Origin: Enterococcus asini ATCC 700915
GTDB taxonomy: Bacteria > Bacillota > Bacilli > Lactobacillales > Enterococcaceae
Assembly: GCF_000407365.1 (NCBI RefSeq)
Contig: NZ_ASVU01000001.1
Span: 1-64,000 of the forward strand
Length of the DNA: 64,000 nucleotides
Direction: 5' to 3'
The notes beneath the pieces are model-generated. The model ran no database searches. It was not told the DNA's origin and saw only the letters and a program-made list of their open reading frames with translations. Positions 2,774-51,669 of the stretch are shown here, piece after piece (the stretch's first letter is position 1; each line of letters starts with the position of its first letter). The position numbers and the translations under genes were made by a program.

Positions 2774-3456
2774 GAGCGCATCACATAACCTGTTCCCCGG
2801 ACAGTTTGAATGTAGCTTTCGTCCCCAGGAACATCGATTTTATTGCGCAGGTAACGGATGTAAACGTCCACCACATTGGTTTCGACTTCCGTTTCGTAGC
2901 CCCAGACTTTGTTTAATAAAACGTCCCGTGCTAAAACGACGTTGACATTTTCCATTAGTGTCAGTAAAAGTTCGTATTCACGTTTGGTCAACTCAATGAC
3001 ATCATTGCCGCGACGAACCACTCGATTTTCCTTTTCGATGGTCAAATCCCGATAGGTAATCGTCGTTTGTTTAGCCACGTGTTTATCGCCTTCAATATCG
3101 ATTCGTCGTAACAAAGCCCGTAAGCGAGCCAAGAGTTCTTCAATTGCAAAGGGTTTTACGATGTAATCGTCAGCCCCGTGATCAAGCCCTGATACGCGAT
3201 CGATGACAGAATCCCGAGCGGTCATCATGATGATTGGGGTATTCTTCACTTGGCGAATCCGTCGGCAGACTTCCAAACCATTTAACTCTGGTAACATTAA
3301 ATCCAAAAGAATTGCATCCCATTCGTTATTTAATGCTGCTTCCAGTCCGGTTCTGCCATTATAATGAACGTCCGTGTTGTACCCTTCATGGGTCAGCTCT
3401 AATTCAACAAAGCGGGCAAGATTCTTTTCATCTTCAATAATCAAGATATTGCTCAT
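2770..3456 (-). CDS. etaR: OmpR-family response regulator, EtaR/LisR/CovR type
   Basis: 228 aa. The receiver domain has the acidic pocket at residues 8-10, phospho-acceptor Asp52 (ILLDLMLP) and Lys101 (VKPF); the C-terminal half is a winged-helix DNA-binding domain ending in the typical [10 protein letters not shown] and RGTGYVMR segments. First gene of a two-gene operon with the kinase. RBS AGAAGGATT precedes the ATG. The closest families by eye are LisR, CovR/CsrR and ArlR, which control stress resistance and virulence in other Firmicutes. Target genes here are unknown. Confidence 0.9.
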
Positions 3457-3676: not shown

Positions 3677-5098
3677 TTATTCTTCGTGGTACCAAGAATA
3701 GTGGAAGATGCCTTCTCGATCCGTGCGTTCATACGTATGAGCGCCAAAGAAGTCCCGTTGTGCTTGGATGATGTTTGCTGGCAAACGTTCCGCACGATAG
3801 GAATCAAAGTAAGCAATCCCTGCAGAGAAAGTTGGTACCGGTACACCAGCTTGGACTGCTAGAGCCACTACATCCCGAGCAGATTGTTGGTATTTCTTCG
3901 TAATTTCCATGAAGTATTCATCCAACAACAAGTTTTCCAAGTCCGGATTTGCTTCATAAGCATCGGTGATTTTTTGCAAGAAGCGGGCACGAATGATACA
4001 GCCAGCTCGCCAAATTTTCGCAATTTCACCAAATGGCAAGTTCCAGTCAAATTCCTTAGAAGCTGCTCGTAATTCCGCAAAACCTTGAGCGTAACTCATG
4101 ATCTTATTGAAGTACAATGCTTCCCGAATTTTTTCTACCAATTCCCCTTTGTCCCCTTCGTAAGTGAAAGGTGCTGGTTTTGGCAATATTTTGCTAGCGT
4201 TAACCCGTTCTGCCTTATAAGCAGAGATGTAACGAGCAAAGACCGCTTCGGTAATTAATGGCAATGGCACGCCTAAGTCCAAAGCACTTTGGCTCGTCCA
4301 TTTACCAGTTCCTTTGTTTCCAGCTGCATCTAAGATCACATCAACGATTGGTTGGCCGGTTCCTAGATCATCTTTTCTCGTTAAGATATCCGCCGTGATT
4401 TCGATTAAATAGCTATCTAACTCCCCTGTGTTCCATTCCTTGAAGATATCCGCCATTTCATCTACAGATAGCCCTAAGATGTTTTTCAACAGGTCATAAG
4501 ACTCAGCGATTAACTGCATATCCCCATATTCAATCCCGTTGTGGACCATTTTGACATAGTGACCAGCACCATTTGGCCCGATATACGTCACACAAGGAGC
4601 GCCATCTTCGGCCTTAGCGGAGATTTGTTCCAAGATAGGTGCTACTAGTTCATAGGCATCTTTTTGGCCCCCTGGCATGATGGAAGGTCCTTTTAAGGCC
4701 CCTTCTTCCCCACCGGAAACCCCAGTACCAATAAAATTAATGCCGGAATTGGCTAACTCTTCATTGCGACGCATGGTATCTTTAAAGAAGGTGTTCCCAC
4801 CGTCAATTAGAATGTCCCCTTTGTCCAAGTGAGGCAATAATTCCGCAATCGTAGCGTCCGTAGCCGCACCGGCTTTAACCATCAACAAAATCCGTCGTGG
4901 CTTTTCAATGGCTGCCACAAAGTCTGCAATGGTGTAAGTGGCTTTAAAATTCTTATCAGGATGTTCCGCTACGACTTCTTCTGTCTTCGAACCCGTGCGA
5001 TTATACAAGGCTACTGAATAGCCGCGACTTTCAATATTCAGTGCGAGGTTTTTCCCCATGACGGCCATGCCGACAACGCCGATTTGCTGTTTTTCCAT
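3677..5098 (-). CDS. gnd: 6-phosphogluconate dehydrogenase, decarboxylating (NADP+)
   Basis: 473 aa, the usual length. Converts 6-phosphogluconate to ribulose 5-phosphate, CO2 and NADPH in the oxidative pentose phosphate pathway. Rossmann motif GVVGMAVMG at residues 8-16, NRT cofactor loop near 33-35, and the catalytic pair Lys183 and Glu190 in KMVHNGIE. The start chosen is the ATG at 5098, 8 nt after AGGAGG; an upstream in-frame ATG at 5164 would add 22 residues with no family counterpart and no RBS. Probably monocistronic, flanked by terminators. Confidence 0.97.
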
Positions 5099-19866: not shown

Positions 19867-19955
19867 GGAGAGTTGGCAGAGTGGTAATGCAACGGACTCG
19901 AAATCCGTCGAACCGCCTTTAAAGCGGTGCAGGGGTTCAAATCCCCTACTCTCCT
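19867..19955 (+). tRNA. tRNA-Ser (anticodon CGA)
   Basis: 89 nt cloverleaf: acceptor stem GGAGAGT/ACTCTCC, anticodon stem ACGGA/TCCGT with loop CTCGAAA (anticodon CGA, reading UCG), long variable arm CCGC...GCGG typical of serine tRNA, and T-arm GGGGTTCAAATCCCC. CCA is not encoded. Its 3' end is the attachment site of the integrated element, and the gene is restored intact by the element's left end. Confidence 0.96.
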
Positions 19956-19956
19956 T
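19940..19956 (+). repeat. attL core (17 bp direct repeat)
   Basis: AATCCCCTACTCTCCTT inside the 3' part of tRNA-Ser; identical copy at 30749-30765. Confidence 0.9.
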
Positions 19957-20009
19957 ATATAAAGAAAGAAACCCCGTCCTATCGAGGTTTCTAACAGTTA
20001 GATTTACTT

Positions 20010-20031
20010 TTGACTTGAATTTGACTTGATT
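20010..20031 (+). repeat. Left integrase arm-type repeats
   Basis: TTGACTTGAA followed by TTTGACTTGATT: the motif TTTGACTTGA in tandem at 12 bp spacing, about 55 bp inside attL. The same tandem occurs at the right end, so these are likely arm sites bound by the integrase N-terminal domain. Confidence 0.7.
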
Positions 20032-20099
20032 CAAAAAAAAATCACTCATAAGCGCTGGGGGCATTAGCATTTGTCAGTTATTGGCAAGTGCTTTTTATT

Positions 20100-20402
20100 A
20101 TGTACAAGGAGGCCCCTCGCTATTACACAAGGGGCGCTATGTTCGTTAAAAAAATGAAAGAAATCCGCTCCCAAATTCTTAAACAAGTGAAAGAAGAGTA
20201 CGAACACCGAGGAGTGTCTACTGTACCATGCATCACTCACTGGCTAAACGGCGTCGAAAAACCATTTACCAGCTCCGTTATTATTTTTTTGAACGTTCAT
20301 ATTCCACAACTTTTCCTAGTCCAGTCAGTTTGCAACCTGACCTACAATTTTCAGTCCGATAAAAAGCCTGGTAATTACCTAGTATACTTAGTTACATTTT
20401 AA
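20100..20402 (+). CDS. Possible small ORF at the left end of the element
   Basis: 100 codons from ATG 20100. The first part (to about residue 55, including KKMKEIRSQILKQVKEEYEH) looks coding and could be helical; the rest is AT-rich and hydrophobic and less convincing. An AAGGGG stretch precedes an internal ATG at 20139. It faces the leftward late genes. It may be a real accessory gene, a decayed gene or chance. Confidence 0.25.
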   Translation: MYKEAPRYYTRGAMFVKKMKEIRSQILKQVKEEYEHRGVSTVPCITHWLNGVEKPFTSSVIIFLNVHIPQLFLVQSVCNLTYNFQSDKKPGNYLVYLVTF

Positions 20403-20510
20403 CATGATCCCGACTAGGTTTCTAGAATTGCCACTAGCTACACACAGGATTGTTGCTTACAACTACCTGCAAAGCAATGCAAAACGTGCTTAGAATGCTC
20501 CTGTGACGAC

Positions 20511-21098
20511 TCACTCATCATCAAAATAGATTGTCGCAAACCATTTATCCGGGTTCGGCTCCCATTTTTCAAGCTTTAGATCCCTAATCAAAGTTGCTGC
20601 TTCACGATCCCCTTGCTGAAATACTTTTGCCTGTGCTGGGTCAACGGTAAAAACTAGCTCATCTCTCAAACAACCTAAAGGCGTTGGCTCATAACTTTTA
20701 AGGAACAACTTCCCCATAATCAGATTAAACTCCGGCAGATTATCTAGGCGCTTTTTATCATATACCTTGGCTATTTCATTAAAAGCAACTTGAAATTTAG
20801 CCTCTATCTTTACTCGCTTTCTTGTGTAGCTGAGTGTATCCATCTCATTGAGTTCCGCCATCGTCTTATCAGTAGCCGGTTCACTGCTAAATGGCTTGCC
20901 GTAAACAGGGCTTACCACTCGATTTCTGACGTGTGTAACATACTTATCCGCAAGGAAGGCTACATCATCTTTATCTAGCTTTTTAAGGGCATTAAAGAAG
21001 ATAGTTGCCGCCTTGGTGTCCCACTCAGTCAACTCGCCGGAAAGCTCCGCAAAGCCTTGCCATAGCCTCAAATAATGTTTTGTTTGCCAAACGTTCAT
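20511..21098 (-). CDS. Hypothetical satellite protein (last gene of the late array)
   Basis: 195 aa, no domain recognised. Predominantly helical in its first 125 residues, with LDKDDVAFLADKY and a basic YTRKRVKIEAKFQVAFNEIAKVY stretch near 97-119; the C-terminal part is mixed. Its ATG overlaps the stop of the upstream gene (ATGA), so the two are coupled. Position at the distal end of the leftward array is where many PICIs carry helper-interference or accessory genes; this is inference only. Confidence 0.75.
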   Translation of the reverse strand: MNVWQTKHYLRLWQGFAELSGELTEWDTKAATIFFNALKKLDKDDVAFLADKYVTHVRNRVVSPVYGKPFSSEPATDKTMAELNEMDTLSYTRKRVKIEAKFQVAFNEIAKVYDKKRLDNLPEFNLIMGKLFLKSYEPTPLGCLRDELVFTVDPAQAKVFQQGDREAATLIRDLKLEKWEPNPDKWFATIYFDDE

Positions 21099-21583
21099 AA
21101 TGCAAACACCTCCGCCATTGTTGCTACATCGTTCAATACATCACCGGAAAGCGTGACTTGCTCCGGTTCAGGCTCCAACCGCTCTCTAAAGCAGATAGCC
21201 GTCTCGATTTCACGAATTTCACTGAGTAGCGAGCTACATTTTTCCTCTGAAATAGATACCACTTTATCCTCGATATACTTCGCTTTAAAACATCTTACAT
21301 CCGTTTTAGGTAAACATGCCAGGTAGGCTTTAAAGTGCTTCAAACGGTAACTGTTGCGCTCTATACTTCGCTCTATCAAGTCGATTCGCTCATACAAAGT
21401 AATAATTTCCTTATCTGGCCTAAACCCGACTGGTACAAGCCCTTGCGCTGTATAACTCACATGCGTGTTCATAGACTGCTGGTAGAATACCCGGCGTTCG
21501 TTTTCCAGGCGATACTTCAGTTTATATAGCTTCTTTTCCAGTTTGAAATATTGTTGAATAATCAACTCGTCCATTATATCCAC
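21095..21583 (-). CDS. Hypothetical coiled-coil satellite protein
   Basis: 162 aa starting with GTG at 21583, 7 nt after AGGAGG. Residues about 5-40 and 60-85 are strongly helical and charged (KLEKKLYKLKYRLENERR; LYERIDLIERSIERNSYRLKHF), and an EEKCSSLLSEIREIE helix follows. No family recognised. It overlaps the downstream gene by 4 nt. It could be a structural or regulatory partner of that product. Confidence 0.75.
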   Translation of the reverse strand: MDIMDELIIQQYFKLEKKLYKLKYRLENERRVFYQQSMNTHVSYTAQGLVPVGFRPDKEIITLYERIDLIERSIERNSYRLKHFKAYLACLPKTDVRCFKAKYIEDKVVSISEEKCSSLLSEIREIETAICFRERLEPEPEQVTLSGDVLNDVATMAEVFAL

Positions 21584-21654
21584 GCCAAGGCCTCCTACCT
21601 GCCAAATTACATAGAAAGAGGCAACCGATTACGCAGCCACCCCTAACAATCCTT

Positions 21655-21855
21655 TTACACTGGAGATAAATTGAAAGCTTTCTTGCCCTGAGGCGTATCT
21701 TCTGATTCAAACTCAACTGATTGCGCCTTCTCTAACTTTCTATATCCAGGCATAATAATTCCGGTATGATGGATAAAATACTCATGTCCATCATCACCAG
21801 CGATAAATCCATACCCTTTCTGATCATTAAACCAAATTACTTTCCCTTTGATCAC
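21655..21855 (-). CDS. Cold-shock-domain protein encoded on the satellite
   Basis: 66 aa, single cold-shock domain: GKVIWFNDQKGYGFI contains RNP-1 (KGYGFI, residues 13-18), and EYFIHHTGI near residues 25-33 stands in for the RNP-2 region (FVHxS/T in canonical Csp). It differs clearly from chromosomal CspA-type proteins in the second half. GTG start at 21855 overlaps the TAG stop of the zinc-finger gene. Expected to bind single-stranded RNA or DNA; it could act as RNA chaperone or antiterminator for satellite or helper transcripts. Confidence 0.75.
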   Translation of the reverse strand: MIKGKVIWFNDQKGYGFIAGDDGHEYFIHHTGIIMPGYRKLEKAQSVEFESEDTPQGKKAFNLSPV

Positions 21856-21986
21856 TACGCTTTGCCTTCTTTCATTTTTCGGGACGCCCTATTTGCTTTT
21901 CCTTTGCATTGCTTACTGCAATATTTCCTATTTCCTCGGTTCGTACCAAAGGAAGTGCCACATACAGCACATGATTTCATTGGCAT
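21855..21986 (-). CDS. Small C4 zinc-finger protein
   Basis: 43 aa from ATG 21986 (MPMKSCAVC), 8 nt after AAAGGA. A CAVC...YCSKQC zinc-binding pattern (CxxC-x13-CxxxC) is followed by a strongly basic tail (KGKANRASRKMKEGKA), fitting nucleic-acid binding. Similar short zinc proteins are frequent in phages and satellites. Translation coupled to the cold-shock gene (shared G of TAG/GTG). Confidence 0.65.
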   Translation of the reverse strand: MPMKSCAVCGTSFGTNRGNRKYCSKQCKGKANRASRKMKEGKA

Positions 21987-22030
21987 TTTTTTATTCCTTT
22001 CTATATGAAGACACGGTTCGCGAGAAAAAA

Positions 22031-22115
22031 TGTACAATACGGCGGGAAGCTCGCTTGTGCGCTCTTTGACCTCCCTACCCCCCCCATGTCTTCACTGAAA
22101 AAATTTTGGCTAGCA
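22031..22115 (-). other. Candidate packaging (cos-like) region with C8/G8 tract
   Basis: Non-coding gap between two late gene pairs. It has an unusual C8 tract (22078-22085), flanking GC-rich segments (GCGGGAAGCTCGC, GCGCTC) and an A/T block (AAAAAATTTT), in an otherwise AT-rich island. Gram-positive cos phages often have GC-rich, G/C-tract cohesive ends beside the terminase genes, so this could be the site cut by a helper terminase. Alternatively it is merely the promoter region for the csp module. Not proven. Confidence 0.3.
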
Positions 22116-22158
22116 TCTAATACGAAACCCTTAAAGTATCAATACTTTTATAATTAAT

Positions 22159-22494
22159 TTATTTTTGGGTATTTTTATTTAACTCTCTCAACATTGCCTT
22201 CAAAGAAGCCTCTTGCTTCATTTCTTTTTCAGTCTTCAACCCCAGCACACTGAACTCATGTTCAACTTTTCCCATTGCTTTTTGTCTTTCGTAGTCGATA
22301 CTTTCGCGCTTCTCATTCTCTTTTCTAATACGAGAAGCTTCTGCGTTTTTGTTTAGTAACTTAGATAATTTCTCATTTTGCTTCTGTTGTTCTTCATCAT
22401 GATGATTAATACTTTCAAACATCGCTTTCTTTTGCTTCTCATTATTCGCTGCTGCTTTCGCTTTCAGTTCATCGATCCAGTTTAAATCAGCCAT
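22159..22494 (-). CDS. Hypothetical charged coiled-coil protein
   Basis: 111 aa, rich in Lys, Glu, Asn and Gln and almost entirely helical (AAANNEKQKKAM, EEQQKQNEKLSKLLNKNAE). No Cys. AGGAGG lies 8 nt upstream of the ATG, which overlaps the previous stop (TAATG). Composition resembles phage scaffold or head-assembly accessory proteins, but no family was recognised. Confidence 0.72.
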   Translation of the reverse strand: MADLNWIDELKAKAAANNEKQKKAMFESINHHDEEQQKQNEKLSKLLNKNAEASRIRKENEKRESIDYERQKAMGKVEHEFSVLGLKTEKEMKQEASLKAMLRELNKNTQK

Positions 22495-23033
22495 TAGAAT
22501 TCCTCCTCAAGATTTCGAGATACCGCCTCCACTTTTTCTTTTAAGAACCAACTATTAGACCTGGTCTTAAATTCCTTCATGTGTCCTGGTCGATTGTCTT
22601 TCAATATATCTTTTTGCAATATGCTATACAGACTTGAACCCTGGTTCATGTTAGATAAGACTTTTTCTGATATGGTTTGAAGTTCGTTCACAAGATTTCT
22701 TGCTCTTTCGTATAGCACTTCATTAGATAGTTCTGCTGCGTTATCAATTTCATCGAAGAGTTTCTTGCCTTCTTCTTCTGAAACAATAGGCTTTTTAAGA
22801 GTGTCATGCTGTCTCTTGTAAAAGTCTAATGAGTTTGATGCCGTCCAAAGTTTATCCTTTGCTTTATTGAATGCTTCAAGATTGTTTTCTACTTGCGCGG
22901 TCGCTGTTTCATCTTGTGCTTTATCAATCGCTTCTTGAGTTACTGCGATATTCTTGCTAGCTTCCATAAGACCATTTCTGTTTTCGTTTCGTAAACCTAC
23001 TAAATAATTTTCTAGTTGTTCCAAAGTTCTCAT
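22494..23033 (-). CDS. Hypothetical helical protein downstream of the TerS-like gene
   Basis: 179 aa from ATG 23033, 7 nt after AAAGGAG (an ATG two codons upstream touches the RBS). Long amphipathic helices, charged, no Cys. It sits between the TerS-like gene and another coiled-coil gene with overlapping or near-touching junctions, so it likely belongs to a packaging or capsid-redirection module. Function unknown; a scaffold-like role is a guess. Confidence 0.72.
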   Translation of the reverse strand: MRTLEQLENYLVGLRNENRNGLMEASKNIAVTQEAIDKAQDETATAQVENNLEAFNKAKDKLWTASNSLDFYKRQHDTLKKPIVSEEEGKKLFDEIDNAAELSNEVLYERARNLVNELQTISEKVLSNMNQGSSLYSILQKDILKDNRPGHMKEFKTRSNSWFLKEKVEAVSRNLEEEF

Positions 23034-23045
23034 GTTCATTCTCCT

Positions 23046-23360
23046 TTATTTTCTATTAAGACAAGCAACATCAAGTACATTTTGCGCACTTTTCAAACGC
23101 GATTGAGTAGATGCTTTCTCATCATTCATAACCTCTGTTAAAACGGCCACAGCTTCCTCTGACGCTCTTTTCAAGCATTCCGTCGTGTGATCCAATACCT
23201 TTTCTTTTAAAGCATGGTATTCACTTACAAAGGCTGGGTCTTTTAAGTAGTTATAGCCAGTCGTTCGATTGATTCCAGCTGTTGTGCAGGCTTCGTCAAT
23301 CGTTGAGCTTTCTAGTAATGCTTTTAAGAAGCGATCTTGCCGAATGTTAAGCTTTGGCAT
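23046..23360 (-). CDS. HTH protein resembling small terminase subunits (TerS-like)
   Basis: 104 aa. The N-terminal part (KLNIRQDRFLKALLESSTIDEACTTAGINRTTGYNYLKDPAF) is the helix-turn-helix seen in phBC6A51-type and other small terminase/HTH phage proteins; the rest is helical (TTECLKRASEEAVAVLTEVM). It is shorter than typical TerS (about 150-180 aa) and may lack a portal/TerL-contact domain. In PICIs a satellite TerS redirects helper packaging to satellite DNA. RBS AGGAGAG. First gene after an internal terminator. Confidence 0.6.
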   Translation of the reverse strand: MPKLNIRQDRFLKALLESSTIDEACTTAGINRTTGYNYLKDPAFVSEYHALKEKVLDHTTECLKRASEEAVAVLTEVMNDEKASTQSRLKSAQNVLDVACLNRK

Positions 23361-23412
23361 TTAGTTCACTCTCTCCTGTCGAATTTTGACTGTTTTTGTT
23401 GAAATGATTAAT

Positions 23413-23467
23413 AAAAAAAGAGGACACAAGAGCCTGTGACAATCGCTTGTCAGACTCTTCTATCCTC
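23413..23467 (-). terminator. Strong internal terminator/attenuator before the TerS-like gene
   Basis: Long interrupted hairpin on the minus strand, GAGGA.AAGAG.TGACAA pairing with TTGTCA.CTCTT.TCCTC (23420-23467), followed by seven T. It separates the early replication genes from the late block and also lies downstream of the promoter at 23506. Confidence 0.85.
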
Positions 23468-23505
23468 GGGTTCTTCCTCATAAGATACGTTATTCAACTA
23501 AGTTA

Positions 23506-23514
23506 ATTATACCA
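23506..23514 (-). promoter_or_regulatory. Extended -10 promoter candidate for the late module
   Basis: TGGTATAAT on the minus strand (TG two bases before a perfect -10, 23506-23511); no good -35. Transcripts would start near 23499 and meet the terminator hairpin about 30 nt later, suggesting a regulated leader. Confidence 0.45.
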
Positions 23515-23551
23515 TATTACAGCCGTTTATGGCGCATTATCACGTTGTTTT

Positions 23552-23698
23552 CTAGGCATTTTTATCCGCTAGAATATGTGACTCAATTACCACATATTGC
23601 ACAACTTTGCCATCTTTAACAATCAACTTCACTTCACCATATTTAGGAAGCTCCACCGTTTGAGATTGGCGGTTATTGTCGATATATACTTTATCCAA
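23552..23698 (-). CDS. Small hypothetical protein
   Basis: 48 aa. The start is set to TTG 23698 (LDKVYIDNN), because AGGAGGAG stands 6-8 nt upstream; a longer frame to 23776 would overlap the preceding gene by 59 nt without an RBS. The central LPKYGEVKLIVKDGKVVQYVVIE looks like a beta-hairpin and is reminiscent of DUF2292/YezD-like proteins, but the match is weak. Confidence 0.55.
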   Translation of the reverse strand: MDKVYIDNNRQSQTVELPKYGEVKLIVKDGKVVQYVVIESHILADKNA

Positions 23699-23717
23699 GT
23701 AACTCTCCTCCTGATTG

Positions 23718-23960
23718 CTAGTCTTGATACCAAATAGAAATGGTAGTCTCTGATTGAAAGTCCTCATTATCCCCAATAGCAGTCGTGCTTTGCTTAATGT
23801 GAAAGATCGCTCTATCCGGATTCTCTGCTAGAAACTCATTTACCATTTTTTCTAGGTCAGGTCGTCTCGGACTGGAACCTGGTACATACTGATAGATTGG
23901 TCCTCCTGATCTAAATAGTTTCATCTTCATTGGGTTGGGTTTACCTGTAAAGTTGCTCAT
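23718..23960 (-). CDS. Hypothetical protein
   Basis: 80 aa, basic and Pro-rich N-terminus, then a helix (DLEKMVNEFLAENPDRAIFHIKQST) and a beta-like C-terminus ending in SIWYQD. No family recognised. Overlaps the preceding gene by 4 nt and has GGAGG upstream, so it belongs to the same transcript. Confidence 0.65.
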   Translation of the reverse strand: MSNFTGKPNPMKMKLFRSGGPIYQYVPGSSPRRPDLEKMVNEFLAENPDRAIFHIKQSTTAIGDNEDFQSETTISIWYQD

Positions 23961-24367
23961 TGTTCGTCCTCCAAAAAATGTTTTATCAATTCATCATCAA
24001 CTAACAGCAACGTCAAGAACCTATCATGCAGATTGGTAAACAGGGCATCTTCATGATCCGTCAGCTCTCGTTGTGTGGCTGTGTTATACAAGACTATCAG
24101 CCCCGATAAGTCCTCTGCCATCTCCTCATTAGTCAGGTAGTTCTCCCCGTCCACTACTGACTGTGCCAACATCTGTTGCCCCCATGCTACTGTTTCCTTT
24201 AGCCATTCAGGGTTAGATTCCATCATCTCAAGCACTTCCGGGGAAAAGGTGGAATAGTCCTTTGTTACCAATGCCACACTAAATGCCACCACGTTCATCA
24301 AGAAGCGTTCCATCATATCCACATAAGCTAGGTTCGGCTTCTTGTCTATCACTAGAAATTGTTTCAT
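23957..24367 (-). CDS. Hypothetical acidic protein, first gene after the putative origin
   Basis: 136 aa, acidic and mainly helical (MMERFLMNVVAFSVALVTKDY, EEMAEDLSGLIVLYNTATQRELTDHEDALF). No domain recognised. RBS AGGAGG 6 nt before the ATG. Its position between the origin and the late terminator is conserved in replication modules of some satellites, but no role is claimed. Confidence 0.65.
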   Translation of the reverse strand: MKQFLVIDKKPNLAYVDMMERFLMNVVAFSVALVTKDYSTFSPEVLEMMESNPEWLKETVAWGQQMLAQSVVDGENYLTNEEMAEDLSGLIVLYNTATQRELTDHEDALFTNLHDRFLTLLLVDDELIKHFLEDEQ

Positions 24368-24410
24368 CTGATTCCTCCTGTCAATTATTGTTCATTCTTT
24401 ATCTGCCTTG

Positions 24411-24618
24411 TGTCACTATCCTGTTCCAAACAACCGTTGATATACCGGCGATTGTCACTAATGTCACTAATTCTGCTCCACTTCTTTTATATATAAAATA
24501 AAATCAATACTACCTCTTTTTTTATTTTCAAAAGAATTGAGTAAACTTAATGACATTAGTGACAAAGTATTGGTACATAAGGGTTCTTTATGGACGAAGT
24601 AATGACAATTTAGTGACA
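24411..24618. other. Candidate satellite replication origin
   Basis: Five copies of an octamer: TGTCACTA at 24411, 24453 and 24462, and its inverse TAGTGACA at 24557 and 24611. Copies point in opposite directions on the two sides of an AT-rich core (about 24481-24545, with TTTTATATATAAAATAAAAT). It sits directly downstream of the helicase gene. SaPI origins have the same design: short repeats flanking an AT-rich melting region beside rep. No genes in this 263 nt gap. Confidence 0.7.
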
Positions 24619-24630
24619 CAACACGAACAT

Positions 24631-26220
24631 TTAATCACTTAAGATTCGATACGTTGAGATTAGTTTTAACCCGATATATCGAGGTGTATGTTGACCACTA
24701 TCATTAAAACCTTTTGTGTTTCTGCTTTTTGGTACTTTGCATTTATCCTTCAAATATTTAGTTAGTTCTTGAGTTGACTGTGCTTTGTAACCATTACAGG
24801 AACAAAACGCTCTGTACTCAGCAGCAACCGTTTTTGCAATTTCCCCTCTAGTTTCAGCGCTGTCAACCTCGCAACATTCAAACAAGAATTGGGCTATCCG
24901 GTCATTGTCAAATAACCATTCGGCTTTCGTATCTGCCATTGCCTTTGAACGTGTGAAGTTAGCCTTCTTACCGTTAAATATTTTTTTGAACTCCTGTATA
25001 CACTGATAAACAAAACTAGCTGATTCTTTTTCTATTTCATCTAAATCTTGGCTATCCCAAAATTTAGCCCCTTCTAATCGTTGGTTGCCAATAGTGATTG
25101 GGACAACGGTTAAACGGTCAGCAAAACCTGGACTCATATCTTTAAAATGAAAGAACTCGTTCATGCTGAAAATATGCTTAGAGTGGCTTACAAAGGTGAA
25201 CCCTTGGATTCCTTTGAACTCACCCCGGACAGCATCGCCACCAGTTAACTGTTTCAAAATACCTGTCTGACTAATGTAATCCTTATCAATATCCCCACTG
25301 ACGTTTAAAGCTTTCCCCAGCAATTCAACAACGGCAAACTTATCTGTGGTCAACATTTGCGGAGTTAGTGCTGTACGATTTTCTTTAGTGATATAGTATT
25401 CAGCCATCATATTCAAAAAACTAGACTTCCCTTCTCCACCTTTCCCATATAAGAAAACTAAGTCTTGTGCTGGGGCATGGCTTCGATAAAAGGTATATCC
25501 AATAAACTGCTTCATGAATAAGGCGGCATCACCAAAGAAATCATGGAAAAATTTGTCTGTCGCTGGTGTCGGTGTTCCGGTCATATCCAATTCATAGTTG
25601 TAAGAAATCAATATGAAATTATCGGGATCGTGGGCCTTCATCTCATTGGTGAGAATATTGTACGTCCCATTTTTAAAGGGAACCAATGCCGGATTGCTTT
25701 CCTCAAAAGGTGAACGGTTGGAATAAGAAGGATCATACGTTTTCTGTTTTACATAAGTCTTGACCGGTGATATATATCTTTGGTCATAGTAGCCCCACGC
25801 TTGCAGTTCTTCGAGACAGATTTTCTCTGTAAAGGAAATCATCTCATTCTTACCAAAGTACCGCCAAGCGCCTTTCAACGGCTCATAGACAGCCCCTTCT
25901 AACAACTTAGGAAATCGCAACAAATGATTCTTTTTGATAATCATATCGCCCATTTTTTCGTGATCAAAGTAATGGTCAATTGAAAATTTATCTGAATCTT
26001 TTTGGTTCACTTCAACCGTACACATAAACCAATCTGGAGAAATGTTGTTCAATTCATCAACCATTGCTTGGGCAATACCAACGTCTTTGCTTTCAATTTC
26101 TTTGATTGCCACACGCAAATTTAACGGTGTTTTGCCAAAGTAACTGTTTTTCTTTTTTTGTTGTACCGTGTGCCTAATGGCGATTGTGTCTTTTAGTACC
26201 GAATCGCTTATACTACTCAA
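24631..26220 (-). CDS. P4/D5-family phage replication helicase
   Basis: 529 aa. Superfamily 3 ATPase core: Walker A GKGGEGKS (259-266), Walker B region LNVSGDID (305-312), then FKGIQGFTFVSHSKHIFSMNE with the family's sensor Asn and a C-terminal winged-helix part. The N-terminal 150 residues form a D5_N-like segment. Starts with TTG at 26220, 9 nt after GGAGG, overlapping the PrimPol stop (TTGA). Likely the satellite Rep protein that melts and unwinds the adjacent repeat-flanked origin. Confidence 0.85.
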   Translation of the reverse strand: MSSISDSVLKDTIAIRHTVQQKKKNSYFGKTPLNLRVAIKEIESKDVGIAQAMVDELNNISPDWFMCTVEVNQKDSDKFSIDHYFDHEKMGDMIIKKNHLLRFPKLLEGAVYEPLKGAWRYFGKNEMISFTEKICLEELQAWGYYDQRYISPVKTYVKQKTYDPSYSNRSPFEESNPALVPFKNGTYNILTNEMKAHDPDNFILISYNYELDMTGTPTPATDKFFHDFFGDAALFMKQFIGYTFYRSHAPAQDLVFLYGKGGEGKSSFLNMMAEYYITKENRTALTPQMLTTDKFAVVELLGKALNVSGDIDKDYISQTGILKQLTGGDAVRGEFKGIQGFTFVSHSKHIFSMNEFFHFKDMSPGFADRLTVVPITIGNQRLEGAKFWDSQDLDEIEKESASFVYQCIQEFKKIFNGKKANFTRSKAMADTKAEWLFDNDRIAQFLFECCEVDSAETRGEIAKTVAAEYRAFCSCNGYKAQSTQELTKYLKDKCKVPKSRNTKGFNDSGQHTPRYIGLKLISTYRILSD

Positions 26221-27131
26221 TAAAGGTTTCCTCCTTTCTCGGCATGGTTTTTAATTCTGGAATGAAAAATGGTATCCAGCTCCTTTTGATCTAATGGTTC
26301 TGGAAAAATTTCTAAGTTGAAATTAATTGCTCCCATCACTTTAGCAATCGTTTCAATTGGTGTATCAACACTTAGCATTTTATCTACCATCTGCCGCCAC
26401 CAAATGTTTCGATTCCCAACGGTTGCCCCTTCAAACAATTGTTCCAGGAAAACGCCTGTATATTTTTGCTTGCCGGAACTATTGGTTGTATAGCTACTTG
26501 TTTTAGGTAGGCGCTGTTTTTTTTGTGCATCTACCCACTGTTGAGAATTAGTAATCCTATGAAGGAACTTATCAACTGGAACAGGTTTAAATCCATCGTG
26601 GAAAATACGTAAATTATCACTGCTAAATTCCGTAACGATAGGCAAGCCTTGACCCTGTGACCACGTTTTATTACTTTCATCAAATTCAAACTTAACGGCC
26701 AGATCTAAGCAAAGCCCAAACAGCAACTTCTCGTATTCCTCACGACTTACTGCACGATCCAATTCAAGAACCAATCGATAACGGATATTATCCGGCTTGT
26801 ATTTCAGGGTTGGATATAAGCAGTAATTGACGGCTTTTAGCTTGTCCGTTATCTTCCCTAAAAATTCGGATTCTGTTTCTTGGACATCATCAAAATCAAT
26901 AAAGAGTAGCGAACGACTAACCAAATTTGTATTGTTACGCTTTAAGTCCCCAAGGATAGTACCAGCGATAACTATCAGCATTTGTTGTGTTTTAATCTTT
27001 AGTTCTTCGTCTTTGTCTTTTGGATAAGGAAGGCGCTGGGCCTTGCACGTTTTAAAGAAATCAAAATCACGATCAATATTCTTTACTTCGTGCATTGGTT
27101 CCAACGTTTTCACTATATTTGTATAAATCAT
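26217..27131 (-). CDS. Primase (archaeo-eukaryotic primase/PrimPol-like)
   Basis: 304 aa. The motif LLFIDFDDV (residues 75-83) supplies the hhhDhD metal-binding acids Asp79 and Asp81; RYRLVLELDRAV near 136-147 is in the place of the later AEP strand. The C-terminal region (about 215-300) is helical, as in primases that precede P4/D5 helicases. GAGGAGGGG RBS. Coupled by a 4 nt overlap to the helicase gene; together they form the replication unit. A third catalytic acid was not assigned. Confidence 0.75.
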   Translation of the reverse strand: MIYTNIVKTLEPMHEVKNIDRDFDFFKTCKAQRLPYPKDKDEELKIKTQQMLIVIAGTILGDLKRNNTNLVSRSLLFIDFDDVQETESEFLGKITDKLKAVNYCLYPTLKYKPDNIRYRLVLELDRAVSREEYEKLLFGLCLDLAVKFEFDESNKTWSQGQGLPIVTEFSSDNLRIFHDGFKPVPVDKFLHRITNSQQWVDAQKKQRLPKTSSYTTNSSGKQKYTGVFLEQLFEGATVGNRNIWWRQMVDKMLSVDTPIETIAKVMGAINFNLEIFPEPLDQKELDTIFHSRIKNHAEKGGNLY

Positions 27132-27282
27132 CGTTTCCCCTCCTCACTTCGTACTCGTCCCATTCATTCCACAAAATCGCCACCACTGAAAACAACGTCA
27201 GCACCTTCACTACCATTGGGGCAAAGCCAAAACCTAAGCCGGCTACTACCCCTAGCGTAAACAGATTGAATTTTTTATTCAT
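27073..27282 (-). CDS. Small membrane protein overlapping the primase start
   Basis: 69 aa from ATG 27282, 8 nt after GAGG (a GTG at 27291 is less well placed). Two hydrophobic segments (about 6-20 and 24-40) and a charged C-terminal tail. Its last 19 codons overlap the primase RBS and start in another frame (59 nt). Unknown role; membrane proteins in satellites may be superinfection or interference factors. Confidence 0.5.
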   Translation of the reverse strand: MNKKFNLFTLGVVAGLGFGFAPMVVKVLTLFSVVAILWNEWDEYEVRRGNDDLYKYSENVGTNARSKEY

Positions 27283-27292
27283 CGTGGCCACC

Positions 27293-27535
27293 TCAATCCG
27301 GGCAAATCTCGTTTGAGATACGTTGAATATCTTTCTCTAGGATTTTAAGACTATCGCCAATTTCACCAAGTAGCCCACTATTAATCTGGTATTTCAAAGA
27401 AAAATCATCACCGGTCACTCTGGCGTATTCCACCGTTTCAGCCAATCGCTTCAATACCTTTGCTTGTTGGGATAGATTGGTTAGCTCAACCACATATTTC
27501 ATTAAATCGTCATTTGTTAATTTTACTGTTTTCAT
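27293..27535 (-). CDS. Hypothetical small helical protein
   Basis: 80 aa from ATG 27535 (MKTVKLTNDDLMKYVVELTNL), 7 nt after GGAGG. Entirely helical prediction by eye, with LEKDIQRISNEI near the end. No family recognised. Its 5' end overlaps the 3' end of an upstream 50-codon gene by 26 nt. Confidence 0.65.
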   Translation of the reverse strand: MKTVKLTNDDLMKYVVELTNLSQQAKVLKRLAETVEYARVTGDDFSLKYQINSGLLGEIGDSLKILEKDIQRISNEICPD

Positions 27536-27662
27536 GGTGTTTTCCTCCATTTTCTGTTATCATGGAGTTAAGAAAAAACGGCTGTAAATTACCGTTGTGA
27601 TAGCCTTTAACGTTCGCTTTGGTCGGTGGAATCGTTAAGGCTTTTTTTCTTACTCCAATCAT
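27510..27662 (-). CDS. Small satellite protein (50 aa)
   Basis: MIGVRKKALTIPPTKANVKG start, 50 aa, basic. The ATG at 27662 follows CAGGAG by 9 nt and lies 2 nt after the stop of the upstream gene, so translation is likely coupled. The gene fills what would otherwise be a 130 nt gap in a tightly packed operon. No family recognised. Confidence 0.55.
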   Translation of the reverse strand: MIGVRKKALTIPPTKANVKGYHNGNLQPFFLNSMITENGGKHHENSKINK

Positions 27663-27664
27663 GA

Positions 27665-27973
27665 TTAATACTCCTGACTTGATACGTAATCCTTGAAGGC
27701 TTCCAAAACTTCCAGCGCTTCATACTCTGATAAGTTCGCCGCCTCTGCCAGCTTCGTAAGTGCTGCTAATTGGCTTTCTCTGAGGCTTTTTAGCATATTC
27801 TTGAGGTTTGCCTCTTGTTGAGAAAAGTAGGCTATCTTGGCTTCTAGTTCGTCGTTTAGTTGTGCCACGTTGTCAATCATCTTAAAAAGTATATCTTTCA
27901 CCAACTCGGTATCGTCTGTTTCTTTCAATATTTGTACGACGCTTTTTCTAAGGTCCGTGATGTTTGCTTTCAT
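27665..27973 (-). CDS. Hypothetical coiled-coil protein
   Basis: 102 aa, acidic and helical with heptad-like spacing (LNDELEAKIAYFSQQEANLKNMLKSL). No domain recognised. Separated by 3 nt from the upstream gene; GGGAG precedes the ATG. Early operon gene of unknown function. Confidence 0.7.
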   Translation of the reverse strand: MKANITDLRKSVVQILKETDDTELVKDILFKMIDNVAQLNDELEAKIAYFSQQEANLKNMLKSLRESQLAALTKLAEAANLSEYEALEVLEAFKDYVSSQEY

Positions 27974-27976
27974 AAT

Positions 27977-28285
27977 TTAAACTCCCAACTTAATTCCCAA
28001 GACACTTGCTAACTGCTCAACTTTCAAATAGATCATCTCTTGGTATTCTTCAAAATCGACTGGCTCGCCTGTTTCATTATCGGTAATAACGCCTTGGGAT
28101 ATATCCGACAAATCTTGTAAAACAGATTCAGCGGTTACCTCTGGCTCATAATCTTCCTTTAGTAATTCAATGCCATTCATTGCCAGTTTAAAACTCTCTT
28201 GGGCAACTTCTCCCGAATTTTCAAATGCTGATTTGAGATGGTATAAAACTCGATTCTCTAAACGATCTTTTTCCAAATAGTGCAT
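27977..28285 (-). CDS. Hypothetical early satellite protein
   Basis: 102 aa, acidic, helical; contains LKEDYEPEVTAESVLQDLSDI near the middle. Strong RBS AAAGGAGG. Second gene of the leftward early operon after the AlpA/Xis-like gene. No family recognised. Confidence 0.7.
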   Translation of the reverse strand: MHYLEKDRLENRVLYHLKSAFENSGEVAQESFKLAMNGIELLKEDYEPEVTAESVLQDLSDISQGVITDNETGEPVDFEEYQEMIYLKVEQLASVLGIKLGV

Positions 28286-28349
28286 TTTTTGCTTCCTCCT
28301 TTAAATTCCTTCAGCAACAACCATTTGACTTCCAACATTCCACATACGC

Positions 28350-28362
28350 CCCCAGCGTTTGC
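28350..28362 (+). repeat. CCCCAGCGTTTGC repeat, copy 1
   Basis: 13 bp motif just downstream of the AlpA/Xis-like gene; a second copy is at 29451-29463 before int, and GCCCCCAGCG recurs inverted near 20051-20062. Possible protein-binding site; role unknown. Confidence 0.4.
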
Positions 28363-28364
28363 GA

Positions 28365-28628
28365 TTATTTTTGATACTGCAATAACCATTCCCGAATTGC
28401 CTTTTTACTATAAAGAACCATTCCTGATTCCAAGCGAATTTCTGGACAGCCTTGTTTCACCCAATCTTTTAATGTATTAACACTTACATCAAAAGCGGCT
28501 GCCGCATACTTCTGCTTTACAATATCTTGGTTATCAACCACTGCTTGCAACGCCTGTTCAAACATAGATACCGCTCCATCAAAACTTTGCTTTTGCCATT
28601 GGGCTAGTGTTTCTTCGATTGTTAGCAT
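28365..28628 (-). CDS. AlpA/excisionase-like winged-helix regulator
   Basis: 87 aa. The C-terminal 48 residues (YAAAAFDVSVNTLKDWVKQGCPEIR then MVLYSKKAIREWLLQYQ) form the MerR/Xis-type winged helix of AlpA and excisionase proteins; the N-terminal 38 residues are helical. First gene of the leftward operon, immediately downstream of promoter PL. In PICIs such a protein activates or directs excision. RBS AAAGGAG. Confidence 0.75.
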   Translation of the reverse strand: MLTIEETLAQWQKQSFDGAVSMFEQALQAVVDNQDIVKQKYAAAAFDVSVNTLKDWVKQGCPEIRLESGMVLYSKKAIREWLLQYQK

Positions 28629-28713
28629 ATGATTTTCTCCTTTCTTCCCGATAGCGATACGTCACTTTGCGTAACTTTTGGATATTTTTTTAGACGTCAC
28701 TTTGCGTAACCTC

Positions 28714-28742
28714 TTGCCTATATTGTATATTTGATTTACAAT
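28714..28742 (+). promoter_or_regulatory. Promoter PR (repressor-int)
   Basis: TTGCCT (28714-28719), 17 nt, TACAAT (28737-28742); 48 nt upstream of the repressor ATG. Confidence 0.7.
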
Positions 28743-28750
28743 GATGTCAA
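28722..28750 (-). promoter_or_regulatory. Promoter PL (leftward early operon)
   Basis: Minus strand TTGACA (28745-28750), 17 nt, TACAAT (28722-28727). It overlaps PR almost completely on the opposite strand. Confidence 0.8.
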
Positions 28751-28790
28751 GTAACATTACGTAACTTTTTTCATAAGGAAGGAGGATTTT

Positions 28791-29429
28791 ATGAAGAACA
28801 ACGAACCCGATAAGTACGAAGTCGGAAAACGAATTAGATCACTACGAACAAAAAACGGACTTACTCTTGAAGAATTCGGGCTAATCTTTGATCCACCTGC
28901 AAGTAAAAGTATAGTTTCTCGTTGGGAATCCGGTAAAAGTTTACCCAGTCCTGAAAGGATAAAAACTATTAGTGATGAATTCAGTATTTCAACTATCTAT
29001 TTGCTCTACGGAACAATCACGATGGAAGATTCTAGATTCATAGATAACTATAAGTATCTAACAGACCCGTCCTATTCATGGTCAAAAAAAGATTATCCTA
29101 AAGTTAAGGAATTTATTAAAAATTCTAGCATTGAAGCTTTACAAGAAGATCTAATGAACTTAGATTTAAACTCTCTCACCTTTTCTCAAATTGCATATTT
29201 GGAAACGGCTTTAGCTCCAATTGATTCTCAAGATTATAAAGACGATGATTTTACTCTATTAAACGGTCTTATGCACCATTTGGAAAATTTATATTCATAT
29301 TCTCTTTATGTAGATATGAACAAAAAAATTAATAAAAATCTAGAAAATCAACAAAAAATAAAAAGTAAACAAGAATTGCAAGACGACGCCCGCAAGCAGC
29401 TCGAAAAAATCTTAAAAAAAATAATGTAG
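28791..29429 (+). CDS. XRE-family master repressor (Stl/Rpr-like)
   Basis: 212 aa. The N-terminal HTH (residues about 8-65: VGKRIRSLRTKNGLTLEEFG, SIVSRWESGKSLPSPERI) is of the lambda-repressor/XRE type. The remaining 150 residues are helical and charged, and show no S24 peptidase (no Ala-Gly cleavage site or Ser/Lys dyad seen). Such repressors in PICIs are removed by binding a helper-phage protein rather than by RecA-driven cleavage. Strong RBS GGAAGGAGG. Sits between its operators and int. Confidence 0.82.
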   Translation: MKNNEPDKYEVGKRIRSLRTKNGLTLEEFGLIFDPPASKSIVSRWESGKSLPSPERIKTISDEFSISTIYLLYGTITMEDSRFIDNYKYLTDPSYSWSKKDYPKVKEFIKNSSIEALQEDLMNLDLNSLTFSQIAYLETALAPIDSQDYKDDDFTLLNGLMHHLENLYSYSLYVDMNKKINKNLENQQKIKSKQELQDDARKQLEKILKKIM

Positions 29430-29450
29430 TATTTCTCCCTCCCACAACGT

Positions 29451-29463
29451 CCCCAGCGTTTGC
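29451..29463 (+). repeat. CCCCAGCGTTTGC repeat, copy 2
   Basis: Identical to 28350-28362; lies in the gap between repressor and int, just before the int RBS. Confidence 0.4.
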
Positions 29464-29479
29464 AACTGGAGGAATAAAC

Positions 29480-30631
29480 ATGGCTACAATCAAGCAATAT
29501 GACACCAAAAAAGGCAAATTTTGGTACTATAAAGCATACTTGGGAATTGACCCAACAACGGGTAAACAAGTAGCTACCACTAAACGTGGATTCAAAACAA
29601 AAAAAGAAGCTCAACTCGCATTAAGTCGGCTTCAGGTAGATTATGAAAAAAATGGATTAAACAAGCCAGCAGCCAGTCAGACCTTCCAAGAAATTTTTGA
29701 TTTATGGAAAGAGAACTACAAATTGACTGTAAAGGAAAGTACTTATTGCAAGGCTATCAGTCAATATGAAGTGCATACTCTACCTGTCTTTGGCAAAAAA
29801 AAGATTGATGAAATTACCGTAACTGATATTCAAAAGTTTGCCAATGATAAGGTGAAAACTAAGAAAAAATATCGTGACTTTATCACCGATGTTTCAAGAA
29901 TTTTTGAATATGCAATACAATTGGGAATCATAAATGATAACCCCACTAAAAGAATTATCGTACCCAAGCGAAAACAAGAAGTAATCGAGGAACGTCCCAA
30001 GAACTACTACACAAAAGAAGAACTGCAAACATTTTTGACCTGTTGCAAAGAACAAGAACCGCCTAAAATATACGCCTTCTTTCAATTGCTGTCTGCTTCC
30101 GGTTGCCGTCAAGGTGAACTGTTAGGCCTAGAATGGCGCTTTGTTGACTTCAAAGAAGAATGTATCTATATCAATCAAACACTAGCTAGAGGAGAAAATA
30201 GGCGCTTGTATATCGAACAACCAAAGACAAAACATTCCAAGCGAACTGTTAGCCTAGATCATGAAACAATGCAAGTTCTAAAAAAGTGGAAAAAGGAACA
30301 AGCCGCCTCTTACCTTCAACTAGGTATTAACACGAACCAAAAAAATCAATTGGTTTTTCCGAATGTGGAAAACAGCTTTCTTCAACTTTCTAAACCTAGA
30401 ACTTGGATGTTAAGAATAATGAGAAACAACGATCTAAGGGTAATCACGATTCACGGATTCCGACACACACACGCCACCTTACTATTAGAAGCTGGTGTCC
30501 CTGCAAAAACGATTTCCGAACGATTAGGCCACACGAACATTCAGATTACTTTAGATTTATATTCACACGTTACGGAACGAATGGAGAAAAAAGTTCCCGG
30601 AGTATTTGCTTCAATCATGGCGGGAAATTGA
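29480..30631 (+). CDS. int: Tyrosine-type site-specific integrase
   Basis: 383 aa. N-terminal arm-binding domain (about 1-55, GKFWYYKAYLGIDPTTGKQ), SAM-like core-binding domain (about 65-155), and catalytic domain with Arg210, Lys near 251-254, HxxR (His325, Arg328), His351 and nucleophile Tyr361. It catalyses recombination between attP and the tRNA-Ser 3' end. GGAGG RBS. Its stop codon lies within the right arm-type repeats, and attR is 118 bp downstream. Confidence 0.95.
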   Translation: MATIKQYDTKKGKFWYYKAYLGIDPTTGKQVATTKRGFKTKKEAQLALSRLQVDYEKNGLNKPAASQTFQEIFDLWKENYKLTVKESTYCKAISQYEVHTLPVFGKKKIDEITVTDIQKFANDKVKTKKKYRDFITDVSRIFEYAIQLGIINDNPTKRIIVPKRKQEVIEERPKNYYTKEELQTFLTCCKEQEPPKIYAFFQLLSASGCRQGELLGLEWRFVDFKEECIYINQTLARGENRRLYIEQPKTKHSKRTVSLDHETMQVLKKWKKEQAASYLQLGINTNQKNQLVFPNVENSFLQLSKPRTWMLRIMRNNDLRVITIHGFRHTHATLLLEAGVPAKTISERLGHTNIQITLDLYSHVTERMEKKVPGVFASIMAGN

Positions 30632-30650
30632 CTTGATTTTGACTTGATTT
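30628..30650 (+). repeat. Right integrase arm-type repeats
   Basis: TTGACTTGATTTTGACTTGATTT, the same tandem TTGACTTGA motif as at the left end (20010-20031), overlapping the int stop codon. Confidence 0.7.
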
Positions 30651-30748
30651 GTTTTCGATTTGTTGAAAAGCATTGATATTTTGATGAGATAAAAAATCAT
30701 AAAACAGCGGTATTACAAGGAAGTGATAGGCTTTGATTTGTTAAAACC

Positions 30749-30765
30749 AATCCCCTACTCTCCTT
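30749..30765 (+). repeat. attR core (17 bp direct repeat)
   Basis: AATCCCCTACTCTCCTT, a copy of the tRNA-Ser 3' end; sequence beyond it is chromosomal. Confidence 0.9.
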
Positions 30766-51306: not shown

Positions 51307-51669
51307 GGGGCTGTTACGGATTCGACAGGCATTGTCGAGCTTGAGATGCGCTTCGCAGGTTACGTCTGCGTTAAAACGTTACAGTTAAATATAACTGCTA
51401 AAAACGAAAACACTTACGCTTTAGCTGCCTAAAAACAGTTTGGCGTGATCCTCCCGGCATCGTCCATGTGCTCGGACCAGGGTCTCAAATCTAGTGGAAT
51501 ACGCTAGTGCTTTCCGTCTGTAAGCACTAGAAGAGATCATCAGACTAGCGATAACAGTAGCCTGTCACTCGGCGATTGTTTGAGCGAATCTCCTAAATAG
51601 AACTGACTACGAGCGTAGAGTCTTGAGTAGCGAGATGTTTGGACGCGGGTTCGACTCCCGCCAGCTCCA
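51307..51669 (+). ncRNA. ssrA: Transfer-messenger RNA (tmRNA)
   Basis: About 363 nt. 5' GGGGCTGTTACGGATTCGAC and 3' GGGTTCGACTCCCGCCAGCTCC form the tRNA-like acceptor and T-arm. The tag frame reads (A)KNENTYALAA followed by TAA at 51384-51433 region. Rescues stalled ribosomes and tags products for ClpXP. The tag is one codon shorter than the KNENNS[YF]ALAA of common enterococci as I recall them. The CCA end is not encoded. Confidence 0.97.

Follow-up and report, generated by a model that had tools for sequence, protein, structure and literature searches.

A probable phage satellite of the PICI type in a tRNA-Ser gene of Enterococcus asini and a probable late-region RNA shared with capsid-forming satellites

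We analysed a stretch of 64,000 nucleotides from Enterococcus asini ATCC 700915 (contig NZ_ASVU01000001.1, positions 1 to 64,000; hereafter the window). A phage satellite element, judged by its sequence most likely a Gram-positive phage-inducible chromosomal island (PICI), occupies positions 19940-30765, with 10.8 kb between its two attachment (att) copies. It lies in a tRNA-Ser(CGA) gene and carries, at its late end, a probable copy of a structured RNA that is conserved in capsid-forming PICIs (cfPICIs). The features are listed in Table 1. The initial annotation, made from the letters of the window, had placed 17-bp att repeats in the 3′ end of the tRNA, and the two copies are indeed identical. 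Overlooked at that stage were the TTGACTTGATT repeats at both ends, the 17-bp repeats between xre and alpA, and the RNA. The TTGACTTGATT-type repeats inside both element ends (TTGACTTGA-type at the left) would be integrase arm sites.

Table 1. Features of the satellite element and its integration site, in window coordinates
Feature	Position	Strand	Evidence or remark
tRNA-Ser(CGA), integration target	19867-19955	+	ARAGORN
Attachment core repeat, left copy	19940-19956		17/17 identical to right copy
TTGACTTGA-type direct repeats, left end	20010-20031		repeat family D1; putative integrase arm sites
Conserved end segment with terminator-like hairpin at 20066-20092	20031-20115	+	common to elements of two congeneric genomes
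Structured RNA common to cfPICIs	20298-20381	-	cmsearch with model R1, 73.2 bits, E 6.5e-15; this copy is one of the 8 rows from which R1 was built
Putative promoter of the RNA, TAGAAA-17-TAAAAT with TG	20396-20424	-	9/12 matches
orf195, no assigned function	20511-21098	-	recurs beside orf162 in L021, L023, L035
orf162, weak match to phage transcription regulator	21095-21583	-	phrog_36 4.9e-4
Cold-shock domain protein	21655-21855	-	Pfam CSD 1.1e-17
Zinc-finger/HNH-like protein, 60 aa	21855-22037	-	weak matches
orf111, no family match	22159-22494	-	
orf181, phrog_23291	22494-23039	-	9.7e-12
TerS-like protein, 104 aa	23046-23360	-	phrog_2538 terminase small subunit 8.4e-8; no NCBIfam match
orf74, DUF2292-like	23552-23776	-	just under Pfam cut-off
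orf80	23718-23960	-	97.5% identical in L021
DUF3206 protein	23957-24367	-	Pfam 1.5e-24
Inverted repeat I1, candidate replication origin	24452-24565		arms 47 nt, 72% complementary
P4/D5-type helicase	24631-26220	-	DUF5906, D5_N, Pox_D5 and NCBIfam primase_Cterm over cut-off
Primase-like protein	26217-27131	-	PHROG phage helicase/primase families 1e-12; PriCT_1 below cut-off
Four small early ORFs (72, 85, 102, 102 aa)	27073-28285	-	
AlpA-like helix-turn-helix (HTH) protein, 87 aa	28365-28628	-	Pfam HTH_17 below cut-off
Two 17-bp repeats between alpA and xre	28659-28710		repeat family D3; putatively operator-like
XRE repressor without S24 peptidase	28791-29429	+	meaningful scores from HTH models only
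Tyrosine integrase, 383 aa	29480-30631	+	four Pfam integrase models over cut-offs
TTGACTTGATT direct repeats, right end	30628-30649		repeat family D1; putative integrase arm sites
Attachment core repeat, right copy	30749-30765		17 bp

An empty site was found in the congeneric genome G004, where both flanks of the element match adjoining stretches, about 350 bp apart. On the left the match runs to L113:3377, the end of the tRNA; on the right it begins at L113:3029, and the first 176 nt of that flank could not be aligned. Elsewhere the same tRNA-Ser is occupied by cfPICIs (L078, L101), an integrase remnant (L028) and a small integrase island (L115); no prophage was seen at this site in the few genomes looked at.

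Protein family scans against Pfam and PHROGs covered the 20 larger open reading frames (ORFs) of the element. An intact tyrosine integrase, an XRE repressor without S24 peptidase, a P4/D5 helicase and a TerS-like HTH protein had all been proposed and were borne out, as was the count of about ten proteins without a recognisable function. The proposed AlpA/Xis-like protein had PHROG matches to TerS-type HTH proteins (1.3e-5) and to an excisionase (5e-4). What had been called a PrimPol stood as a primase-like protein; the PrimPol label itself did not, and with no NCBIfam match obtained for this protein the primase label rests on the PHROG matches. PADLOC and NCBIfam added marginal matches, primase_Cterm being the sole one over an NCBIfam cut-off. 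Head, tail or lysis families were not found among the 20 ORFs, in keeping with the stated lack of structural and lysis genes. An AlphaFold model of orf195 had a mean pLDDT of 43.5 and was not used.

Gram-positive PICIs, i.e. EfCIV583 of Enterococcus faecalis, the SaPIs and streptococcal satellite prophages, likewise have a terminal int, a divergent repressor/regulator pair, a primase-helicase module, a TerS-like gene and no virion genes. The window element differs in its smaller size and in carrying the RNA, EfCIV583 and the SaPIs being set beside it by description only. Passages in PMC6092414 define PICIs, for Gram-negative genomes, by an integrase, a replication module and a master regulator, an att site never occupied by prophages, the lack of structural and lytic genes, and a size of about 12-15 kb. 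The window element shows this conserved organisation; among its 20 scanned ORFs there are no structural or lytic genes, a TerS-like packaging protein is present, and the TerL, portal, capsid and connectors that cfPICIs encode were not found. Small size and missing structural genes would also suit a plain prophage remnant, defective and lodged in a tRNA gene, an explanation that is nevertheless highly improbable: the int, repressor and replication genes are open, the att sites are intact, the gene set recurs in other genomes, and orf181 matched satellite records only. All ten of its matching records in the phage collection (10/10) are Streptococcus satellite phages, the class that parts of PMC6813308 describe. 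Because the att architecture, the empty site, the gene content, the satellite-only homologues of orf181 and the modules shared with other satellites all fit, we regard the element as PICI-like, and the earlier proposal of a helper-dependent satellite of about 10.8 kb is supported on the same grounds. The element may be functional, as that proposal held from its open key genes and intact att sites.

The shared modules connect it with satellites of both kinds. Its D5 helicase occurs in 3 of 10 genomes of the genus, its own included (95% identical in G002, 93% in G008), and at 49% identity in two IMG/VR contigs. In the G008 element (L020), the primase is 99% and the D5 helicase 93% identical to those of the window, the integrase only 34%; after the replication genes follow HNH, TerS, TerL, portal, capsid/protease and connector genes, by which content L020 is a cfPICI. 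L078, on the same contig as L004, is also a cfPICI, with a contig-cut integrase 69% identical to that of the window and a tRNA-Ser at its other end. L025, from genome G033, carries orf181-, zinc-finger- and cold-shock-like genes as in the window element, and no head gene match was found between its D5 gene and its RNA. orf195 and orf162 lie side by side in three other integrase-bearing elements (Table 1), and several late genes have homologues in other elements lacking head genes. In the phage collection, neither the whole element (megablast) nor its 551-bp left end (blastn) had a match, and protein scans of IMG/VR with the TerS-like protein and orf195 gave no confirmed relatives. Because of the modules shared with L020, L078 and L025, we place the window element, as a capsid-less member, in a pool where modules pass between satellites with and without capsids of their own. 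The Enterococcaceae cfPICIs compared (the G008 element; IMGVR_UViG_2522125159, L004/L078; IMGVR_UViG_2558860859, L040/L060), so named here from gene content, resemble it in the replication module, in integrase and tRNA-Ser (L078), in DUF3206 (some of them) and in the late-end RNA, whereas the window element lacks their HNH-TerS-TerL-portal-capsid-connector module.

The RNA emerged from a comparison of left ends as a conserved non-coding block (20287-20367) recurring in L020, L025 and L033. A pattern with free spacer bases found the block in 8 IMG/VR contigs and in 5 of 105 family genomes, including its own; these free bases belong to helix 3, every cell of which is paired in the first alignment. 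That alignment holds 9 sequences, 8 of them distinct; 90.5% of its cells pair, and 11 of 21 pairs have two-sided changes. Without any structure as input, RNAalifold also arrived at the three helices, with a shorter outer one and two extra pairs. A second alignment of 20 rows was fitted to the structure, which favours its pairing figures: 91.3% of cells pair (32-43% in slid controls) and two-sided changes occur at 17 of the 21 pairs. It holds 76 cells with two-sided changes compared to 24.4 in shuffles, and the observed values were reached by 0-2 of 500 shuffles. The 12 rows outside the training set of R1, of which four (L061, L066, L070, L071) are close kin of training rows, comprise 177 Watson-Crick, 27 G-U, 5 A-C, 16 other and 27 gap cells. 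Because G-U cells outnumber A-C cells by 68 to 9 over all 20 rows, the transcribed strand was assigned to the minus strand of the window, i.e. the sense of the late operon. R1 further matched L004/L078, L059, L076, L075 and L077, all outside its training set. At the gathering score, Rfam 15 gave no match in the RNA stretch of the window, L078, L040 or L092; the best match below that score, to the glmS ribozyme in L078 (21.6 bits, cut-off 37, E 0.004), was judged by eye to be chance, its aligned core not being kept in other copies. A conserved structured RNA of some kind is very likely for the family and, less firmly, likely for the window copy. Among the matches listed, no description of such an RNA was found in titles and abstract openings of the open-licence literature on PICIs, cfPICIs and phage satellites, a set that did not include the original cfPICI paper.

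The TerL set of cfPICIs comprised 33 IMG/VR loci, 23 of them with a TerL at least 74% identical and many of these near-identical to one another. Of these 23 contigs, 19 contain the RNA, and in three of the four others (L005, L073, L074) the expected site, usually 5.3 kb from the TerL start, would lie past the contig end. The 10 loci with a TerL of 21-32% identity, not all of which reach the expected place, gave no meaningful match to the RNA, the highest score being 15.5 bits (E 1.7). Among 105 family genomes, model R1 finds 7 copies and model R2 finds 9. The nine consist of six cfPICI ends (G008, G016, G065 and G126, which were mapped; G127, with capsid and connector ends; and G125, with a connector end seen by eye), two capsid-less PICIs (the window and G033), and one copy of uncertain context (G029, L058/L106), by eye beside ORFs resembling insertion-sequence genes. 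Seven matches in 395 genomes of the order correspond to the window, G049, G055, G125 and G126, plus G286 (L104) and G182 (L105), the last two being treated as false and lying inside host ORFs; the three matches in 398 class genomes were all among those of the order and family scans.

In all seven mapped cfPICIs (L020, L033, L078, L100, L101, L102, L107), the RNA comes after the last connector gene. At that point three phages, vB_BteM-A9Y, Javan367 and phi 13, continue straight into another gene, labelled as a tail component in vB_BteM-A9Y only. R2 found no copy in these three phages (two of them not quite whole), nor in two Streptococcus satellites and the host prophage region. With blastn, the 88-bp RNA stretch hit one record of the phage collection, MT836809, at chance level (81% over 42 nt, E 0.8), and R2 found no copy in it. 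Two Lacticaseibacillus entries deposited as phages, JB1P3 (L092) and R23.1 (L008), are 14-kb elements resembling cfPICIs. A promoter-like sequence and a UAGCUA hairpin were seen by eye after their last connector, and a related RNA was not confirmed: default model searches gave nothing, and with filters off the best score in a 601-base stretch of JB1P3 was 13.4 bits, elsewhere in that stretch.

Transcription signals were read in 23 loci, leaving out near-duplicates and the copies in G029, G286 and G182. An exact TATAAT was present in 21, located 43-45 nt upstream of the match start in 20 and at -58 in L025; TTGTAA or TTGACT stood 17 nt before it in 17 loci. Per-locus promoter scores were reached by 0-38 of 300 shuffles, and the weight of the promoter lies in its fixed position, not in any single score. 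An upstream hairpin with a UAGCUA loop was seen by eye in many of 15 sequences.

These data also bear on what else the conserved block could be. Phages of the phi 13 kind package by cos, and the block might be a DNA packaging site (cos) common to satellites and not an RNA, which the capsid-less element would retain so that a cfPICI or related phage could package it with its terminase. The cfPICI terminase is indeed of the same lineage as that of Staphylococcus phage phi 13, at 40.5% identity, and is accompanied by HNH and TerS genes, and the locus lies near the element end with a near-palindromic core, TTTGCAAC. We consider this unlikely, given that the three helices covary with an excess of G-U over A-C cells, as expected of a transcribed strand and not of a DNA palindrome, that a near-consensus promoter stands at a fixed distance upstream, that in L040 the block is 5-6 kb from TerS and HNH, and that the three related phages checked do not contain it. 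That the RNA serves the accessory gene often found downstream, as its leader or attenuator, is very unlikely too: a same-strand accessory ORF comes next in several cfPICIs, but a T-run hairpin lies within 330 nt downstream of the RNA in 19 of the 23 loci, the downstream ORFs vary between elements, and the window has no long same-strand ORF between the RNA and the att site.

For the window copy itself, a further possibility is that the element derives from a cfPICI and retains the RNA as a functionless vestige, as the replication proteins 93-99% identical to those of the G008 cfPICI, the lack of energetic stability and the weaker promoter might indicate. We regard this as improbable, though deserving attention. 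The late genes are open, several with homologues in other head-less elements; a second capsid-less element, L025, keeps the RNA together with its TATAAT; and in its internal loop and P3 loop the window copy has the same letters as the family consensus, even though the flanks can barely be aligned.

The best joint explanation, to which we give a probability of roughly 0.7, is that the element is a capsid-less, helper-dependent PICI of Gram-positive type and that its late-region RNA is most likely a satellite small RNA. Several observations weigh against it. The window promoter is weaker than those of the family and sits at -20 rather than -44 (its score was reached by 4 of 300 shuffles), promoter-like sites in this region hardly exceed shuffles (2 vs 1.2), and no T-run hairpin was found after the window copy. 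In folding energy the window RNA does not beat its shuffles (z +1.18; 176 of 200 did as well or better), and in the common register 16 of 21 positions are paired. One cfPICI contig, L068, with a 98% identical TerL, is without the RNA; inspection by eye suggests a recombination immediately past the -35 region. Many of the 23 TerL contigs are near-identical. The element is a little below the usual PICI size. Finally, no antisense target was found in the host genome: complements of the conserved 15-nt strand were the strand itself and two places with two mismatches, against 9 control matches.

A life cycle can be proposed for such a PICI. The integrase inserts the element into tRNA-Ser(CGA), which its anatomy and the empty site in a relative show. 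From the gene families, the S24-less repressor would keep it silent until a helper phage product lifts repression, the AlpA-like protein would then drive excision or early genes, the primase-like protein and the D5 helicase would replicate the element, and the TerS-like protein would divert packaging into helper particles. The RNA would most likely act as a small RNA of the late phase, adjusting the expression of helper or satellite virion genes. A late role in trans is suggested by its place at the head/tail boundary, by the promoter it has, and by its occurrence in two PICIs that lack capsid genes. That it is specifically a trans-acting virion-assembly RNA is a tentative proposal, with the odds against it. 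Equally speculative is the wider idea that Enterococcal PICIs and cfPICIs share an undescribed trans-acting small RNA with its own promoter at the tail-gene junction, which reprograms helper virion assembly to the benefit of the satellite, as a convergent Gram-positive counterpart of SviR, an RNA of the PLE satellites of Vibrio cholerae; in its boldest form, the capsid-less element would use the RNA because it moves together with a capsid-forming satellite or is carried in the heads of one.

Regulatory RNAs of the satellites P4 and PhiR73 lie in the early operon, whereas the RNA described here is at the late end. They pair with leader sequences, according to passages in PMC7567579. The nearest precedent, by analogy, appears to be SviR, which, as parts of PMC12987554 report, binds to tail transcripts of the helper and reduces one of the helper's capsid factors. 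SviR and the IIR transcript of the PLE satellites are likewise non-coding RNAs conserved in a satellite family (sections of PMC12987554 and PMC7567579). They belong to another host phylum and another satellite family, and the comparison drawn here is one of analogy.

The non-coding RNA is a new feature of this otherwise PICI-type element. Satellites have so far been described mostly via their proteins, and the RNA offers a handle on helper use and on module exchange between capsid-less and capsid-forming satellites. It was found here in satellite contexts only, one copy being of uncertain context, at the head/tail boundary in satellites which produce heads of their own and borrow tails, and could serve as a compact marker for satellites in Enterococcaceae genomes. 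If it is true that the RNA acts on helper transcripts, RNA control of virion assembly arose in two satellite families.

Some further observations concern relatives and neighbours of the element. The G002 element (L021, also L003), whose D5 helicase is the 95% identical one and in which no head gene was seen by eye among the ORFs, encodes a 765-aa tail tape-measure protein at L021:6344-8641 on the minus strand (phrog_991, 5.8e-163). PLE satellites build chimeric tails with their own tape measure, as described in part of PMC12987554, and the protein of L021 may be a Gram-positive parallel. AlpA-like relatives (58-59% identical in the loci compared) lie near a tyrosine integrase in G001, G006, G007, G008 and on the second contig of the same genome (G000:C2:170401-170565; L022:10401-10766). 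A resident prophage at about G000:C1 1949000-1989000 (L036-L039) has terminase, portal, capsid, adaptor, tape measure, holin, endolysin and serine integrase genes by PHROGs and is a candidate helper.

The conserved end segment at the left aligns at 93% over 76 nt with L021 and at 92% over 64 nt with L020; a terminator scan covering its hairpin found 2 against 0.8 in shuffles. We make no cos claim for this segment, as part of it is the terminator-like hairpin and the motif CGCTGGGGRC recurs inside the element and in L021. The motif occurs at 20053, 28357 and 29458 of the window, at 3361, 15899 and 16945 of L021, and at 4857 and 16961 of L020, its places matching across elements with different integrases: at the element end, before int, and after alpA (2 of 3). 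The small island at the same tRNA-Ser (L115, G028:C21:8001-27000) has an integrase 68% identical to that of the window and a 476-aa protein matching metallo-protease and regulator PHROGs, with no phage genes seen by eye. Elsewhere in the window, a tmRNA gene with the tag AKNENTYALAA is located at 51307-51669.

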